IMG/VR virus record: IMGVR_UViG_3300021354_000003
Location: 1-39,396 of that record
DNA: 39,396 nucleotides
Origin: a virus
Reading direction: 5' to 3' (one strand)
The notes below the pieces were generated by a model. That model did no database searches. It saw nothing but the letters and a program-made list of their open reading frames with translations, and was not told the origin of the DNA. Each line of letters opens with the position of its first letter. The stretch's first letter is position 1. The position numbers and the translations under genes were made by a program. Positions 18,582 through 31,820 of this stretch are shown piece after piece.

Positions 18582-18739
18582 TTAGTTGTTCCTCCATATA
18601 CCTGTGATTCAAGATGTTTAATTTGAGTCCTTAACGCATCAATTTCAGCTTCTTGCTGGCGTAATACTTCAGCCGCTTTGGTTATATGCGTACCTGAATA
18701 AAACTGCTCTAATCTGTCAGCCAAATCGTTTATGTTCAT
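18578..18739 (-). CDS. Small coiled-coil protein coupled to the helicase
   Basis: The 53-residue product begins NINDLADRLEQFYSGTHITK and continues AAEVLRQQEAEIDALRTQIK, a clear coiled coil. The start overlaps the helicase stop (ATGA) with TTGAGGAGCTAAG before it, so it is probably co-translated with the helicase. Phages often carry a homologous small protein with the pattern AAxxLRxQxxEIxxLR in early regions. Function unknown. Confidence 0.65.
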   Translation of the reverse strand: MNINDLADRLEQFYSGTHITKAAEVLRQQEAEIDALRTQIKHLESQVYGGTTK

Positions 18740-20070
18740 CTTAGCTCCTCAATTGCTATGTCAGAAATTGCCCTTTTGTCTTTTAAGGCGTCCCAAATAC
18801 TTTGGTCAATCGTTTTATTGGTTAACAAAAGGTAAACCCATACATCGTGTTTTTGACCGCTACGATGCAAGCGTCCTACTGTCTGCTCATATAGCTCTAA
18901 ACTCCAAGGCAAAGATACAAAAACCATCTTGCTGCCCCCATGCTGAAGGTTAAGGCCATGCCCTGCTGACTTAGGATGAATCAATAGCAACTCAATCTTG
19001 CCATCGTTCCAACGCTCAATCGCCCTAGGATCATTAATTGTCTGTGCGTTAGGATACCGACGCTTAAGTTCAGCTAATTCTTCAACATAGTTGTAAACAA
19101 TAATGGTGTTGGCGCGTTGATTCTCTTGTAGCAACTCATCTAATAAATCAAATTTGTGATGGGAAAACCACATAGGTGTTTGCGTTACATTCATACGCCC
19201 TGGCGTATTAGATGGCGTAGTTTCAGTTTGATAAATAAAGCCAGACGCCATTTGTTGTAGTTTTCCAGTTACAACGGCTGCGTTAAGCGCCGTAATTTCT
19301 GTATCTTTAAACTCTACAACGTAGTCTTTCTTCATCTTCTCGTATGGGGCGCGGTCTGTTAGGTCGCAACTTAATTCAACAACGTGGCACGGTGGCAACG
19401 TATCAGCGTATTCACCAGCTTCTAAAACAAACGTAGCGGGTTTAATCTTTTCCATGACTTTTCCTAATGAGCCTACACGCGGCTCCCATTCGCCAAAGTC
19501 TTTATTGACTAAGACAAAATACTGTTGCATAAACGCGCCTTTGGCACGTCCTAATAAAGTCTGATCAACAATTTTGCATTGGCCAAAGACATCTTCTAAG
19601 CCATTGCTAGTAAAACTACCAGTCAACCCCCAACGAAATTTAAAAGGCGTTAACACCTTAGATAGCGCTTTAAATCGTGCGCCTGATGGGTTCTTTAGCC
19701 GTGTTAGCTCGTCAAATACAATGCCATCAAAATCTAAATATTGTTCTGATAGCCATTGCAAACTGTCATAGTTCACTACAACTACCTTAGTTTTGCTACG
19801 CAGCGCTTTAAGACGTTGATCTGGCGTTCCTACTGCAACACTTAGGGTTAACCCTGTAGCCCACTTAACTTGTTCTACAGGCCATACATCCGTACAAACG
19901 CGCTTAGGGGCGAGAACAAGCCAACGCTTGACTAACCCCTGCTTGATAGCATCTTGCATCGCTGTAAGCGTTATAGCCGTCTTGCCAGCGCCTACAGGAG
20001 CTAAGATCATGGCTCTGTCTTTTTCAAACAAAAAGTCAGCCGCCGTATCTTGATAAGGGCGCAATTTCAT
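18736..20070 (-). CDS. SNF2-type DEAD/DEAH-box helicase
   Basis: The 444-residue protein has the Q/N-terminal motif LRPYQ, Walker A APVGAGKT (24-31), LVLAPKRV (motif Ia), FDELTR (Walker B, D120/E121), LTGSFTSN (motif III) and the SNF2-type motif VI QTVGRLHRSGQ (about 396-406). It is an ATP-dependent DNA translocase or helicase working on duplex DNA. The gene overlaps the VRR-NUC gene by 4 bases; in many phages SNF2 helicase and VRR-NUC nuclease occur together in the replication block, suggesting joint processing of branched DNA. DELT replaces the more usual DEAH in motif II. Confidence 0.9.
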   Translation of the reverse strand: MKLRPYQDTAADFLFEKDRAMILAPVGAGKTAITLTAMQDAIKQGLVKRWLVLAPKRVCTDVWPVEQVKWATGLTLSVAVGTPDQRLKALRSKTKVVVVNYDSLQWLSEQYLDFDGIVFDELTRLKNPSGARFKALSKVLTPFKFRWGLTGSFTSNGLEDVFGQCKIVDQTLLGRAKGAFMQQYFVLVNKDFGEWEPRVGSLGKVMEKIKPATFVLEAGEYADTLPPCHVVELSCDLTDRAPYEKMKKDYVVEFKDTEITALNAAVVTGKLQQMASGFIYQTETTPSNTPGRMNVTQTPMWFSHHKFDLLDELLQENQRANTIIVYNYVEELAELKRRYPNAQTINDPRAIERWNDGKIELLLIHPKSAGHGLNLQHGGSKMVFVSLPWSLELYEQTVGRLHRSGQKHDVWVYLLLTNKTIDQSIWDALKDKRAISDIAIEELR

Positions 20071-20342
20071 ACGTTAGCCATCCAAGTGTCAATATGGTCT
20101 TTAGTCCATAGACAAGCGTAGTTTTGGTTAAGTTGCTTAAGATTACGGGCGTGGATGCCTTGTAGGGCAGATAGTTTGCCACCTGTAGTCTTTAGCTCAA
20201 CAAACCACGTCTGCCCACTAGGTAAGCAAGCTATGCGGTCAGCTACGCCGCGTTGATTAGGAGATCTGAACTTATAGGTAATACCCCCAAGGGACATTAC
20301 AGCCCAAACAAAGTATTTTTCAATTTCGGTTTCTTTTGTCAT
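20067..20342 (-). CDS. VRR-NUC domain nuclease
   Basis: This 91-residue stand-alone nuclease shows the VRR-NUC core: FRSPNQRGVADRIAC (D35), WFVELKTTGGKLSALQ (E49, K51, Q61) and a final helical part. The PD-(D/E)XK-type fold cuts branched or flap DNA. It is the first gene of the leftward block. No ribosome site is visible, and a -10-like TATATT ends only 6 bases before the ATG, so the mRNA may be leaderless. The stop overlaps the helicase start (ATGA). Confidence 0.88.
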   Translation of the reverse strand: MTKETEIEKYFVWAVMSLGGITYKFRSPNQRGVADRIACLPSGQTWFVELKTTGGKLSALQGIHARNLKQLNQNYACLWTKDHIDTWMANV

Positions 20343-25124: not shown

Positions 25125-27422
25125 ATGAACTTTGTAGAATATATCACCAATCTAGCACCAGAAGGTGAAACCGCTTTAATTGTTAGACAAAAACCACAGT
25201 TAGATGGCAATGGGATGTTGCAGACCCATGCCGATGGTACGATTAAATGCACATGGCCTGCGTTCCTGCCTACTGCTAAGGTCAAGAAGGATTGGGCAAT
25301 TTACGGCAATACAGGCTCGTTTATCCTTGATCGCTTTGCCGATGGCAAGGTATCAGCGTCTAGCGCCAACTGCGAATATGTCCTTGTGATGATGTTAGAT
25401 GACATCGGCACCAAGTCCAAAGAGCCACCACTTGCGCCTACTTGGATCATGGAAACATCCAAGGGATCATACCAATGGGGCTACGCATTTAAAGAGCAAC
25501 CAACTAAGGGCGACTTTACCGCAGCAATCAAAGCCATAGCCAAAGCGGGCTACACCGATCCTGGCGCTACTAATGCAGTGCGTAATTTCCGTCTGCCAGG
25601 ATCTGTAAACCTGAAACCAGGGCGTAATAACTTTGTATCAACATTGATACAATTTCACCCTGAGCGTGAATACAACCTTGAAGATATCTGCGTTGCCCTT
25701 GATGTTGTGCCTGATCCTGCCGATACTGCTACAAATGTAGCAATACGCTTAGCTGATACCGGCAAGGATTCAGTAGTCACTTGGCTTAACGAGCAGGGTT
25801 TAATTATGTCTGCTGCCAATGGCGAGGGCTGGATGGGGATCGTTTGTCCTAACAACGCCGAGCATACCGATGGCAATATTGAAGGTCGGTATAAACCCTT
25901 AGATCGTTCGTTCTGTTGCTTGCATGGTCACTGCGTGGACTTTAGTTCGCAGATGTTTCTCGATTGGGTAGCGGATAATGGTGGCCCGACTGTATCGCAT
26001 GGTTTGCGTGATGAGTTGCTTGCTGAGAAAATGAAAGATACTTTGTCCAAGATAACGCCTAATGATATTTACCGCGATACGGCTGCCGAACTCATTGCTG
26101 AAGTTGAGCGCAAAGAACTAGGACGCATCGAGAAGGCTGAGTGGTATTCCCGTTTTGCGTATATACAAGACGATGAGTCTTACTTTGATATGCAAGACCG
26201 CCGCGAAGTGAGCCGTCAAACCTTTAACGCCTTGTTCCGTCATACCGCCTGCAAGAGTATTCATACGGGGCGCAAGGTAGAAGCGTCTATCTGCTTTGAT
26301 GAGAATCGTCAAGCCAATGGTGCAAAGGCGTTAGTTGGCGTTACTTACGCTGCCGGCGAAGATGTAATCGTGTCCCGTGATGGTGATCTATATGGCAACC
26401 GCTGGCGTGATGCCCGCCCGCAATTAGAAAACCCGTCTGCTGACATCTCTATGTGGCTAAAGCATTGTCAAGAGCTTGTCCCTGAGCCTGATGAGCTAGA
26501 GCATATCTTTGATGTGATGGCCTTTAAGGTGCAACACCCTGAGATTAAGATAAACCATGCAATCCTTCATGCTGGCGATCAAGGAAGCGGCAAAGATACC
26601 TTTTGGGCGCCGTTTATATGGGCTGTTTGCGGTAATCACTCTAAGAATCGCGGCATCATGGACAATAACAGCGTCAATAGCCAGTGGGGCTACCAGCTAG
26701 AGAGTGAAATTCTCATTATCAATGAGCTAAAAGAGCCGGACGCCGCAACGCGTCGTCAGTTGGCTAACCAATTAAAGCCAATTATTGCTGCGCCACCTGA
26801 GATGTTGCCTATTAACCGCAAGGGCTTGCACCCGTACATGATGGCAAACCGCCTGTTCGTGTTGGCTTTCTCTAATGATCCTGTGCCTATCTCGCTAGAT
26901 AGCCAAGATCGGCGCTGGTTTTGCGTGTGGTCGGCTGCGCCGCGTATGGACTCAAACAAGGCCAAGAAAATGTGGGACTGGTATCGTGCCGGCGGGTTCG
27001 CTGCTATCGCTGATAATCTTAAAAAGCGTGATGTATCCCGTTTTAATCCTAGCGCGCCGCCGATGTGGACTGAGTTCAAGGCAAACTTAATAGAGCATGG
27101 CATGAGCATGGCTGAGAGTTACCTCGTAGAGATGCTTAAAAACCGCACAGGGGAGTTTTCGCGTGGGGTTATAGGCTCACCCTTTCACTCTCTCTGTGAT
27201 CGCCTTGCGGGTGCTGCGCCGTCAGGCGTTAAAGTGCCACAGGCTGCATTGTTGCACGCGCTTAAGGAAGCCGGTTGGATAGATCGCGGGCGATTAAAAT
27301 CACGTGAGTTTGATTCTAAAAAGCATATATTTTGTGCCCCTGATCTTAACGATTTAGCCAAGTCTGAATTGCGCCGGTTGGTAGAGGAAAACCCGCCGCC
27401 TAAGATGGTTCTAGTTAAGTAA
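25125..27422 (+). CDS. Primase/SF3 helicase (RepB/D5-like, DUF5906-type)
   Basis: In this 765-residue protein the N-terminal part (1-200) resembles an archaeo-eukaryotic/RepB-type primase, with VMMLDDIGTKS (D92, D93) as candidate metal ligands. A putative zinc site follows (C241, H247, C265, H267, C270). The C-terminal helicase has Walker A HAGDQGSGKDTF (484-492), Walker B ILIINELKE (529-536) and a sensor-like VLAFSNDPVPI. Such proteins prime and unwind DNA at the fork or load at an origin. The ribosome site AAAGGTAGTCC precedes the ATG. GC-rich codons appear more often here than in the late genes. Confidence 0.85.
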   Translation: MNFVEYITNLAPEGETALIVRQKPQLDGNGMLQTHADGTIKCTWPAFLPTAKVKKDWAIYGNTGSFILDRFADGKVSASSANCEYVLVMMLDDIGTKSKEPPLAPTWIMETSKGSYQWGYAFKEQPTKGDFTAAIKAIAKAGYTDPGATNAVRNFRLPGSVNLKPGRNNFVSTLIQFHPEREYNLEDICVALDVVPDPADTATNVAIRLADTGKDSVVTWLNEQGLIMSAANGEGWMGIVCPNNAEHTDGNIEGRYKPLDRSFCCLHGHCVDFSSQMFLDWVADNGGPTVSHGLRDELLAEKMKDTLSKITPNDIYRDTAAELIAEVERKELGRIEKAEWYSRFAYIQDDESYFDMQDRREVSRQTFNALFRHTACKSIHTGRKVEASICFDENRQANGAKALVGVTYAAGEDVIVSRDGDLYGNRWRDARPQLENPSADISMWLKHCQELVPEPDELEHIFDVMAFKVQHPEIKINHAILHAGDQGSGKDTFWAPFIWAVCGNHSKNRGIMDNNSVNSQWGYQLESEILIINELKEPDAATRRQLANQLKPIIAAPPEMLPINRKGLHPYMMANRLFVLAFSNDPVPISLDSQDRRWFCVWSAAPRMDSNKAKKMWDWYRAGGFAAIADNLKKRDVSRFNPSAPPMWTEFKANLIEHGMSMAESYLVEMLKNRTGEFSRGVIGSPFHSLCDRLAGAAPSGVKVPQAALLHALKEAGWIDRGRLKSREFDSKKHIFCAPDLNDLAKSELRRLVEENPPPKMVLVK

Positions 27423-28728: not shown

Positions 28729-28768
28729 CACTTAACGCAAAATATATTTGTGGTGTTGCTTTTTTGGT

Positions 28769-28812
28769 TTGTGGATTGGTTGTGGATTGATTGTGGACTG
28801 ATTGTGGACTAA
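28769..28812 (+). repeat. Four tandem 11-bp iteron-like repeats
   Basis: TTGTGGATTGG, TTGTGGATTGA, TTGTGGACTGA and TTGTGGACTAA start at 28769, 28780, 28791 and 28802, exactly 11 bases apart, one helical turn. Seven positions (TTGTGGA) are constant. A fifth copy-like TAGTGGACTGT stands at 28659. Such spacing puts identical contacts on one face of the DNA. Confidence 0.85.
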
Positions 28813-28855
28813 GTAAAATGGCGGCAAACCCGCATTAAATCAGGGTTGCGGACAA

Positions 28856-28864
28856 TGTGGATAA
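28856..28864 (-). promoter_or_regulatory. Perfect DnaA box
   Basis: TGTGGATAA is the reverse complement of TTATCCACA, the strongest DnaA-binding sequence. It stands 44 bases after the iteron array and directly before an AT-rich stretch. Confidence 0.6.
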
Positions 28865-28897
28865 TGTTAAAAACCATATAAGCCAAAGATTGTATAT

Positions 28898-28926
28898 TTG
28901 TTGTATAAATACAACGAATGTTATAA
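28898..28926 (+). promoter_or_regulatory. Possible rightward promoter with inverted-repeat operator
   Basis: TTGTTG (28898-28903) and TTATAA (28921-28926) are 17 bases apart. A 7-2-7 inverted repeat GTTGTAT-AA-ATACAAC (28900-28915) covers the -35 and the spacer, as a repressor site would. It could drive transcription toward the terminase, about 410 bases away. Confidence 0.35.
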
Positions 28927-28954
28927 GCTAGCGATTTAAAATGCGCGTCCAAAG

Positions 28955-29151
28955 TGTCCACGTTGTCCACAATTACCCTGCTTTTATCCCCGCGCCCCCA
29001 TGTTTACAGCTAAAAGTTGTGGACAGTTTGGACAAACTTAAAACCCGTTGTCCACAATGTCCACAAGCTACGCGCCCGCCAGCTAAAAAGAAAAAGCAAA
29101 CCGCCCGAATGTTGGCAGCTCTTAGCGTGGACAAGTCCACAATGCCCACAA
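28955..29151. repeat. Array of TTGTCCACA-type boxes in 9-bp pairs
   Basis: Boxes start near 28955 and 28964 (TGTCCACG, TGTCCACAA), 29018 and 29027 (TGTGGACAG, TTTGGACAA), 29049 and 29058 (TGTCCACAA twice, perfect) and 29134 and 29143 (AGTCCACAA, TGCCCACAA), each pair 9 bases apart. GTGGAC-AA-GTCCAC at 29127-29140 is a perfect inverted pair. TTGTCCACA is the DnaA box consensus known from high-GC bacteria and differs from the E. coli box at one position. Confidence 0.75.
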
Positions 29152-29339
29152 GCGCCAGCTATAAGTTAGTAACCACTAACCTATTAGAATTTTGCCTTCC
29201 AGCTTGAGGCCCCCGGGTAGGGCCGGCAGATTTTGGGTTGTGGCTACGGAGGTATCACGAACAATTTTTATTTTTATAGTCAACGCGCCCCAAGTCTTTT
29301 AATTTTTATTTTTTATTAAAAAGTGATAACATCCACGCC

Positions 29340-29795
29340 ATGACCTTCCATTCTTTCGCGTATGAGCCTCGCAAGCTTCAAGCAACCGAAGCGCGATTAG
29401 AGGCGATAATGAAAGCCGCTAAGCTCGGCCTTAAGGGTGACTCTTTAGCATTAGCGGCGGGCATGACGCCAACCGAGTACCGCCAATTAGTATTGTTTGA
29501 CCCAATCGCTGAATACGCAGAACTCAAAGGGAGAGCGCAAGGTGAACGTGAAATGGCCGAAGTCTTGCATACTGCTGCAAAAGAAGGCGACACCAAATCA
29601 GCCCTTGCCATCTTGCAACACCAGCACGGCTGGGTCGCCAAACAACAACTCTCTATCGACGTTGATCAGCGCATCTCAATCACTGCTGCTCTCGAACAAG
29701 CACAGTCAAGAGTCATCGATGCTCTCACCCTCGACAATGAAACAGAAACAATAGAGTTCAAAGAAGTAACTAAAAAGAGTCTAAAAGCAGCCTAA
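29340..29795 (+). CDS. Terminase small subunit
   Basis: The 151-residue protein has a helical N-terminal DNA-binding part (TEARLEAIMKAAKLGLKGDSLALAAGMTPTEYRQL, an HTH of the TerS type) followed by AQGEREMAEVLHTAAKEGDTKSALAILQHQHGW, a frequent small-terminase pattern, and an acidic tail. It recognises phage DNA for packaging. It stands directly before the large subunit, whose start comes right after its stop. No ribosome site is seen before the ATG at 29340. A -10-like GATAAC ends 9 bases before it, so a very short leader is possible. Confidence 0.82.
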   Translation: MTFHSFAYEPRKLQATEARLEAIMKAAKLGLKGDSLALAAGMTPTEYRQLVLFDPIAEYAELKGRAQGEREMAEVLHTAAKEGDTKSALAILQHQHGWVAKQQLSIDVDQRISITAALEQAQSRVIDALTLDNETETIEFKEVTKKSLKAA

Positions 29796-31325
29796 ATGCA
29801 AACTACCCGTTATTCCGCGCAAGATGAACAAGAACTCATGGCACGGTTGTGGAGTCCTGCCATTAAAGACAATCCACTAGCGTTTGTGATGTTTGCGTTC
29901 CCTTGGGGACAACAAGGCACTCCGCTAGAACACTTCACTGGCCCACGCAAGTGGCAGCGCCAGGTGTTGCAAGACCTAGCCGATCACATTAAAGCGAACA
30001 ATGGCAAGGTGGACTTTGATGTTATGCGCCTGGCAATTGCGTCTGGTCGTGGTATTGGCAAGTCGGCGCTAGTCAGTTGGCTAGTGCTATGGATGATGAC
30101 AACAAGGATTGGCGCTACAGTCATTGTGTCTGCTAACTCCGAGAGCCAGTTGCGCTCAGTCACTTGGGCCGAGATTACTAAATGGTCGTCAATGTCCATT
30201 AATACATACTGGTGGGAAATATCAGCTACAAGAGTCATGCCCGCCAAATGGCTCACTGAACTAGTCGAACGTGATCTTAAAAAAGGCACACGCTATTGGA
30301 ACTTAGAAGGCCGTCTATGGTCGGCTGAGAATCCTGATTCGTTTGCTGGAGTCCACAACTATGATGGCGTAATGGTGGTGTTTGACGAAGCAAGCGGTAT
30401 TGATGACTCCATCTGGGCGGTCACTTCAGGGTTCTTTACCGAGAACACGCCTAACCGCTTTTGGTGTTGCTTCTCTAACCCACGGCGTAATACAGGTTAC
30501 TTTTATGAAGCGATCGAAGGTAGCAAACGGGACTTTTGGCAATCTAGGCAAGTAGATGCTAGGGATGTAGAAGGCACCGACAAGAACGTCTATAACCAAA
30601 TTATTGAAGAATACGGCGCTGATTCGTATCAAGCGCACGTTGAAGTGTACGGTTCGTTTCCTTCAGAAGGTGACGATCAGTTCATCTCATCAACGCTAGT
30701 AGATGAAGCAATGAAACGGGACAAATGGCAAGACGACTCCGCGCCCATTGTCATTGGGGTGGATCCAGCTAGGTTTGGCTCAGATAGTACAGTTATTGCA
30801 GTGCGTCAAGGACGCGACATTATTGAAGTTCGTAAGTTCAAGGGCGACGATACGATGGTTGTGGTTGGTCATGTGATCGAAGCCATAGAACAATATAACC
30901 CTGCGGTAGTAGCCATAGATGAAGGTGGTCTAGGCGCAGGCGTGGTGGATAGGCTTAAAGAGCAACGCTACAAGATACGGGGTGTGAACTTTGCAAACAA
31001 GTCAAGAAACCCTATGATGTATGGCAACATGAGGGCGCAGATTTGGGGTCAGATGAAGGATTGGTTAAAATCTGCAAGCATCCCTAAAGAGAAAACGCTC
31101 AAGACTGACCTGATTAGCCCGCTAATGAAACCTGACTCTAAAGGCGCTATTTATTTAGAATCCAAAAAAGACATGAAAGCTAGAGGATTAGCCAGCCCAG
31201 ACAGTGCCGACGCCATTGCGCTAACATTTGCGTTTCCGGTTGCAAATCGCGAAAGTCGTACTACAATCCGAAAACAAACGTATCAATCACAGAGCGCTGC
31301 TCTTAACTCATGGATGGGGAGCTAG
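29796..31325 (+). CDS. Terminase large subunit
   Basis: In this 509-residue motor, Walker A is ASGRGIGKS (82-90), Walker B VMVVFDEAS (192-200), and the coupling region CCFSNPRRNTGYF follows near 224. The RNaseH-type nuclease has VIGVDPARFGSDST (D323), VVAIDEGG (D375/E376) and ASPDSADAIALTFAF (D469/D472). It powers DNA packaging and cuts the concatemer. Headful packaging would be expected if it is as P22-like as the virion genes, in keeping with a circularly permuted genome, but I cannot place a pac site. Confidence 0.95.
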   Translation: MQTTRYSAQDEQELMARLWSPAIKDNPLAFVMFAFPWGQQGTPLEHFTGPRKWQRQVLQDLADHIKANNGKVDFDVMRLAIASGRGIGKSALVSWLVLWMMTTRIGATVIVSANSESQLRSVTWAEITKWSSMSINTYWWEISATRVMPAKWLTELVERDLKKGTRYWNLEGRLWSAENPDSFAGVHNYDGVMVVFDEASGIDDSIWAVTSGFFTENTPNRFWCCFSNPRRNTGYFYEAIEGSKRDFWQSRQVDARDVEGTDKNVYNQIIEEYGADSYQAHVEVYGSFPSEGDDQFISSTLVDEAMKRDKWQDDSAPIVIGVDPARFGSDSTVIAVRQGRDIIEVRKFKGDDTMVVVGHVIEAIEQYNPAVVAIDEGGLGAGVVDRLKEQRYKIRGVNFANKSRNPMMYGNMRAQIWGQMKDWLKSASIPKEKTLKTDLISPLMKPDSKGAIYLESKKDMKARGLASPDSADAIALTFAFPVANRESRTTIRKQTYQSQSAALNSWMGS

Positions 31326-31541: not shown

Positions 31542-31820
31542 ATGAGTTTAAAACCATTAAGCAATTGTGTTCTAATTCGTCAAGACATAGAAAAATTATC
31601 TGAATTAATAGTTTTACCCCAAAACAAATTATTTAGCGGTATCATTGTGGCAATTGGTGAAGGTAAAAAAAATCCAAAAGGATTTCTTGAACCTATGAGC
31701 GTCAAAGATGGCGACCATGTGCTATTCGGTGAATTTTCCGGGCAAAAGGTCACAGTCGATGGCGAAGAACTGCTTATGATGCGTGAGCCTGATGTGATCG
31801 GAATACTAAATGGCGTATGA
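31542..31820 (+). CDS. GroES-like co-chaperonin
   Basis: The 92-residue protein follows the GroES layout: KPLSNCVLIRQD at the start, then a mobile-loop region with SELIVLPQ (IVL at 23-25 matches the GroEL-binding tripeptide), SGIIVAIGEGK, PMSVKDGDHVLFGEFSGQKV (barrel core) and EELLMMREPDVIGIL at the end. The loop is about six residues shorter than in E. coli GroES. It would cap host GroEL, helping large phage proteins, most likely the coat, to fold. It overlaps the portal start by 11 bases. Phage GroES-like proteins such as T4 gp31 do the same. Confidence 0.9.
   Translation: MSLKPLSNCVLIRQDIEKLSELIVLPQNKLFSGIIVAIGEGKKNPKGFLEPMSVKDGDHVLFGEFSGQKVTVDGEELLMMREPDVIGILNGV

Follow-up and report, generated by a model that had tools for sequence, protein, structure and literature searches.

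A very likely phage iteron origin beside the terminase genes of a freshwater podovirus, with repeats that covary with the wing tip of the phage primase-helicase

What reads a dense array of short repeats that lies next to the terminase genes of a phage? The array occupies positions 28748-29151 of the window, meaning the whole stretch of 39,396 nucleotides that was analyzed, a circular phage contig whose two ends share a 120-bp repeat. A sequence-only reading of this DNA had named three possible readers: host DnaA, the phage primase-helicase, and the machinery of packaging or segregation. Comparison with related phages makes it very likely that the array is an iteron origin of the phage, read by its own primase-helicase in the manner of P4 alpha or SaPI Rep, with specificity residing in the tip of a wing. 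The protein would bind the array, melt it and start replication there.

The repeats form one family with the unit consensus TG(T/A)C-N-N-A-N, in which the TG.C core is constant and the other bases vary. With the family PWM at a score above 8, 15 of the 33 sites in the window fall inside 28769-29151, a density ~77 times that of the rest of the window. Similarly, 9 of the 13 window matches to TTGTCCACA with at most one mismatch lie within 421 bp, where 0.04 would be expected from the density outside. The array is thus a cluster of short iterons, and no second cluster was seen anywhere else in the window. The four phased 11-bp repeats described earlier are indeed spaced in exact 11-bp steps, and the eight or more boxes in 9-bp pairs on both strands are borne out by the 15 PWM sites, which include five such pairs (Table 1).

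Table 1. Positions in the window of the array, its flanking genes and the proposed initiator
Feature	Position	Strand	Basis
Primase-helicase, 765 aa, proposed initiator	25125..27422	+	PHROG DNA primase, Pfam, motif
C-terminal winged-helix domain, residues 660-754 (predicted)	27102..27386	+	AlphaFold, mean pLDDT 79, ~90 in wing
Wing tip, residues 725-732 KSREFDSK (predicted); covarying K725, R727, D730	27297..27320	+	Covariation and AlphaFold
Left iteron block, four units CAATCCACAA, CAATCCACAA, CAGTCCACAA, TAGTCCACAA at 28769, 28780, 28791, 28802	28769..28811	-	PWM scan and sequence
Iteron pair TTGTCCGCAA, TTATCCACAT at 28846/28855, 9-bp spacing; holds the sole TTATCCACA 'DnaA box'	28846..28864	-	PWM scan; alignment of relatives
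AT-rich core between opposed iteron blocks, candidate unwinding element	~28861..28940		AT content, alignment; putative function
Iteron pair at 28954/28963, 9-bp spacing	28954..28972	+	PWM scan
Iteron pair at 29017/29026, 9-bp spacing; inverted repeat with the 29048..29066 pair	29017..29035	-	Sequence and PWM scan
Iteron pair at 29048/29057, 9-bp spacing	29048..29066	+	PWM scan
Three iterons: single site at 29125 (-), 9-bp pair at 29133/29142 (+)	29125..29151		PWM scan
Terminase small subunit gene (terS), right flank of array	29340..29795	+	Position before terL; matching gene so annotated in OR003940
Terminase large subunit (terL)	29796..31325	+	PHROG 2

Does the array resemble an origin? As to layout, and layout only, it does, as had been proposed: minus-strand units lie to the left of an AT-rich core and a plus-strand pair lies to its right. 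The AT-rich inverted repeat reported earlier survives in part, since the stretch is AT-rich (73%–77% in 60-bp windows across 28861-28940) but its short palindrome is not conserved. No conserved hairpin was found in the core, and shuffled sequences give equal hairpins in most arrays. A AATGTTATAAGC island at 28919-28930 within the core is kept in the closest relatives, and only 86 of 265 arrays contain a AATGTTATAAG island. Strand skew, suggested earlier as a check, is likewise divided. With the window treated as a circle, there is no GC-skew switch at the array, and the cumulative GC-skew minimum lies at 20085, but detrended AT skew reaches its minimum at 28810, within the left iteron block; since gene content shifts there too, the support is weak. 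A minus-strand SNF2/DEAD-type helicase gene (18736-20342, PHROG 62), in a region that is otherwise plus-strand, lies at the GC-skew minimum. The array itself sits between a small minus-strand ORF and terS/terL, and a GroES-like co-chaperonin is encoded at 31542-31820, adjoining terL. The region had been described as lacking a convincing gene; an ORF inside the array (28941-29207) had no match in a PHROG search.

How is the array conserved? Relatives were collected by terL (80) and by the primase-helicase (80), the loci being environmental contigs, some of them clonal. In related freshwater phages the array is found at the same place upstream of terS and has a similar layout. Many of these phages carry TGTCCACA, the window-type unit, at that place, and others, with terL 92%–97% identical, carry TGACAATT, TGACCCAA, TGACTAAC/TGACTACA, TGAC(C/T)CAC or TGACCCAT instead; TGACCCAC is likewise found as a replacement unit in the related phages. 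In a multiple alignment, the swapped units mostly occupy the same columns in the same orientation, with conserved islands between them. Hence, of the conservation that the sequence-only reading had looked for, place and layout are kept but the sequence of the unit is often replaced wholesale. The nearest named phages, OR003940 (L398, 3200-4400) and MW202483 (L397, 4400-5200), have other repeat families before terS (TGACCCACTGG and ATGTAAAC, respectively), and their initiators lie outside the wing pattern defined here. MW202483 annotates a 'dnaa protein helix-turn-helix' gene near its pre-terS repeats.

Could the array be an origin that depends on host DnaA? The boxes would then be true DnaA boxes, and the host initiator would melt the AT-rich core; TTGTCCACA and TTATCCACA do match DnaA-box consensus forms, and such a core is present. 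The one perfect DnaA box is there as a sequence, a single TTATCCACA at 28856, but its identity is another matter: it forms the latter member of an iteron pair at 9-bp spacing, and at the equivalent position relatives have TTGTCCACA or, in other array types, another unit. The two supposed forms of DnaA box are both variants within one phage iteron family. Moreover, TTATCCACA occurs 46 times in 79 kb of window-type arrays and 0 times in 82 kb of arrays lacking K725/R727, residues of the phage primase-helicase that are discussed below. TTATNCACA has 4 copies in those 82 kb; conserved DnaA boxes of this form are not kept across the relatives, and the boxes vary with the wing type of the phage. Every box is replaced in phages whose terL is nearly the same, and the unit follows the residues of a phage protein rather than any host feature. 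Host DnaA is therefore disfavored as the reader, because the units swap and TTATCCACA vanishes with wing type; these observations contradict a host-DnaA-dependent origin, which we regard as highly improbable.

The phage encodes a protein that, judging from profile matches, has primase and SF3 helicase domains. Its N-terminus resembles an AEP-like/RepB-type primase and is followed by an SF3-like helicase and a C-terminal winged-helix domain; a Walker A motif, GDQGSGKD, occurs at residue 484. The protein matches PHROG 1156 (1e-18), Pfam DUF5906 (3e-11, above the cut-off) and an NrS-1-type primase (1e-4), and it falls 0.1 bit below the cut-off for Pfam RepB_primase. AlphaFold was run on residues 638-765 with a 100-sequence alignment, and only this C-terminal model was used because the full-length model has a mean pLDDT of 57. 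The model has helices at 650-673, 687-697 and 706-716 and wing strands at 719-724 and 733-737, and it points to a DNA-binding domain of the winged-helix type, with a helix-turn-helix and a beta-hairpin wing. Structural neighbors are weak, mostly winged helices, with a best Z of 6.0. The P4 OBD was absent from the sequence and Foldseek/VIA matches of the domain, an absence that does not imply a different fold. The helix at 706-716, the would-be recognition helix, is well conserved, and residues 725-732 fall between the two wing strands, at what would be the tip of the wing.

Which part of the protein, if any, changes when the repeat changes? Among 61 loci, residue 725 is the only one of 765 primase columns that fully separates the three main array types: it is K in 41/41 loci with TGTCCACA, A in 15/15 with TGACAATT and M in 5/5 with TGACT-AC. 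The next columns are 730, 727 and 731. No column of terS or terL, compared with array type in the same way, separates the types. A tree of primase-helicase residues 1-690 shows at least 13 switches of array type. In each of the seven supported independent pairs, K725 and D730 switch together with the array; the five best columns of the whole protein in this tree test are 730, 725, 731, 728 and 727.

Does the pattern predict the repeat in other phages? A held-out set comprised 235 new loci from other clades. Scoring called for four or more copies of the top unit, which 125 arrays provided; in ~59 further loci the copies were too few. The rules for D730 and R727 were noted before this test. D730 with TGTC, and any other residue with TGAC, was right in 124 of the 125 arrays, and R727 went with a following C in 67 of 68. 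The fuller rule for the last base (C for R727, A for G727, T for A727 or S727) was right in 112 of 123 arrays, with the letters for G, A and S fixed after a first look at the pooled list, though consistent with the training loci; most of the misses come from arrays with A727 or S727, in which T and A are mixed. There are 25 changes between TGTC and TGAC on a second tree, built on residues 436-690 of 181 loci. On this tree, TGTC goes with D730 in 15.7 of 16 independent pairs (none opposite, p ~3e-5) and a last-base C goes with R727 in 14.2 of 16 (none opposite, p ~1e-4). The best column for the TGTC trait is D730 and that for the last-base C is R727. That each base trait has a best residue of its own speaks for direct reading and against loose linkage. 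For residue 725 and the inner bases, the relation is less clear-cut than for 727 and 730.

The proposal that the phage primase-helicase reads the array is thus the one that residue-level covariation strongly supports. The repeats are most likely binding sites of this protein, because the repeat and three wing-tip residues change together across hundreds of related phages. The covarying residues are predicted to lie on the beta-hairpin wing and not on the recognition helix. These three wing-tip residues are likely to hold the specificity of the initiator in a large lineage of freshwater podoviruses, as a readable code: at 730, D pairs with T as the third base of TGWC; at 727, R, G and A or S pair with C, A and T as the last base; and 725 influences the bases between. 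The same reading would make the changes of array type in the 61 loci at least 13 re-targeting events, with the whole array rewritten or swapped each time. Arginine and guanine form a classical contact, and R727 may make one with the guanine opposite the last-base C. RFX1 offers a precedent for the wing, as it has a distinct DNA-binding mode in which the wing carries recognition. A passage in PMC10516667 likens the RFX1 fold to the P4 OBD and to a viral SF3 tail domain. RFX1 is a eukaryotic transcription factor with no sequence relation to the window domain, for which wing-based recognition is likewise proposed. No three-residue wing pattern for AEP-SF3 initiators was found in the accessible literature, subscription papers being mostly outside it, and the novelty of the pattern is provisional.

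The pattern is not absolute. Two arrays (L091 and L094) are mixed, with TGACCCAC beside TGTCCACA, and are possibly intermediate between two unit types; in both, TGTCCACA and TGACCCACA alternate head to tail. Two others (L069 and L275) depart from it by having D730 with mostly TGACCCAC, and both T and A occur as the last base in arrays with A727. Only L196 is a strong mismatch: its wing is K-R-T, but its array holds 11 copies of TGACCCAA. The left part of this contig resembles one clade and the right part another, with the junction between domain and array, so it is either a recombinant or a misassembly that separates initiator from origin. A different case is L082, whose protein is 94% identical to that of the window but whose array is D-type. 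The DNA of the two primase genes is ~90% identical over most of its length, the last 100 codons are 51%–75% identical, and similarity returns only after the array. Because identity drops between these points, the C-terminal domain and the origin appear to have been replaced together or in parallel, and the best reading of the aligned sequences is that initiator specificity has been exchanged as a module in at least one relative.

Could the array serve some purpose other than replication? One suggestion was a packaging or segregation site; the reader would then be terS, with the array as a terminase pac/cos or segregation element, and the array does adjoin terS and terL. The unit is tracked by no terS or terL column. 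In addition, 192 of 241 loci conserve a separate 10-mer, GGGTAGGGCC, with no more than one mismatch and located ~112 bp upstream of terS, whatever the array type. If a packaging site lies here, this island (29208-29225 in the window) is a better candidate than iterons that swap; its role could be in packaging or in regulation. The array can be explained without packaging, and that it serves packaging is very unlikely. Also just before terS, at 29249-29279, is GGAGGTATCACGAACAATTTTTATTTTTAT, conserved in the nearest relatives and present with at most five mismatches in 43 of 241 loci. Another possibility is that the primase-helicase binds the array mainly as an operator, for autoregulation or to control the divergently oriented terS and minus-strand genes, or as a copy-control site. 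The array fills the divergent intergenic region before terS, and the initiator of phage P4 also binds a second control site. Against this, a promoter and terminator scan stayed at chance level, with no promoter excess over shuffles, only one iteron cluster was seen in the window, and SaPI-type origins have opposed iteron blocks around an AT-rich core, the layout found here. We consider a mainly operator or copy-control role unlikely.

How might the primase-helicase start replication from the array? Copies of the protein would bind the repeats through the C-terminal winged-helix domain, with the wing tip (725, 727 and 730) reading the variable bases of the unit and the conserved part of the domain presumably reading the constant TG.C core. 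The bound copies could then form SF3 helicase rings at both of the opposed iteron blocks, melt the AT-rich core, unwind and prime, and the phage's own PolA-type polymerase would extend the primers.

Several known systems resemble this arrangement in part. First, P4 alpha joins primase, SF3 helicase and a C-terminal winged-helix origin-binding domain that acts on short repeats in one polypeptide (Yeo 2002, as described in PMC4234260). The likeness extends to the ori/crr repeats, which the winged helix binds; the P4 alpha primase is of the Toprim type (PMC4234260), whereas the N-terminus of the window protein is AEP/RepB-like. Second, the C-terminal domain of SaPI Rep recognizes short iterons just downstream of its gene (Ubeda 2007, as cited in PMC7581432). 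Within this group (SaPIbov1, SaPI5 PriRep and SCCmec Cch2), SaPI5 shares the AEP primase and helicase as well as C-terminal iteron recognition. These are staphylococcal satellite islands, whereas the window is a complete phage with the array ~1.5 kb downstream of the gene, beside terS, and no wing-residue code for SaPI Rep initiators was found in the literature searched. Third, in the PLE satellites of Vibrio cholerae, the RepA DNA-binding domain and the origin covary and have been swapped repeatedly, and experiments have demonstrated cognate pairing (PMC8263062). RepA is a RepA_N-domain protein that uses ~30-bp semi-palindromic iterons and covaries as a whole domain, whereas the window family has a three-residue pattern. 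Fourth, geminivirus iterons keep their position but differ in sequence among close relatives, with recognition by the cognate Rep (PMC12548392). Iteron position and sequence behave in this way here too, although geminivirus Rep is a rolling-circle initiator of ssDNA plant viruses and is unrelated to the window protein. Fifth, proteins of the pRN1 ORF904/BIP-1 type share the order of AEP primase, SF3 helicase and C-terminal winged helix, but a stem-loop rather than iterons has been proposed as their site (PMC4234260), and in the window family the hairpin is not conserved.

What does this array mean for phage replication more generally? First, it warns that an array in a phage genome can look like DnaA boxes and yet belong to an initiator of the phage. 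Second, initiator-origin pairs set which replicons can coexist and which satellites or defenses can hijack them, and how such a pair changes specificity without dying is a general question that this family addresses. It offers hundreds of matched pairs, at least 13 to 25 switches, and a pattern of three residues from which the repeat is predicted in held-out arrays. Hence, the question of how specificity switches can be put to a direct test, for which short DNA probes and a domain of ~115 residues would serve.
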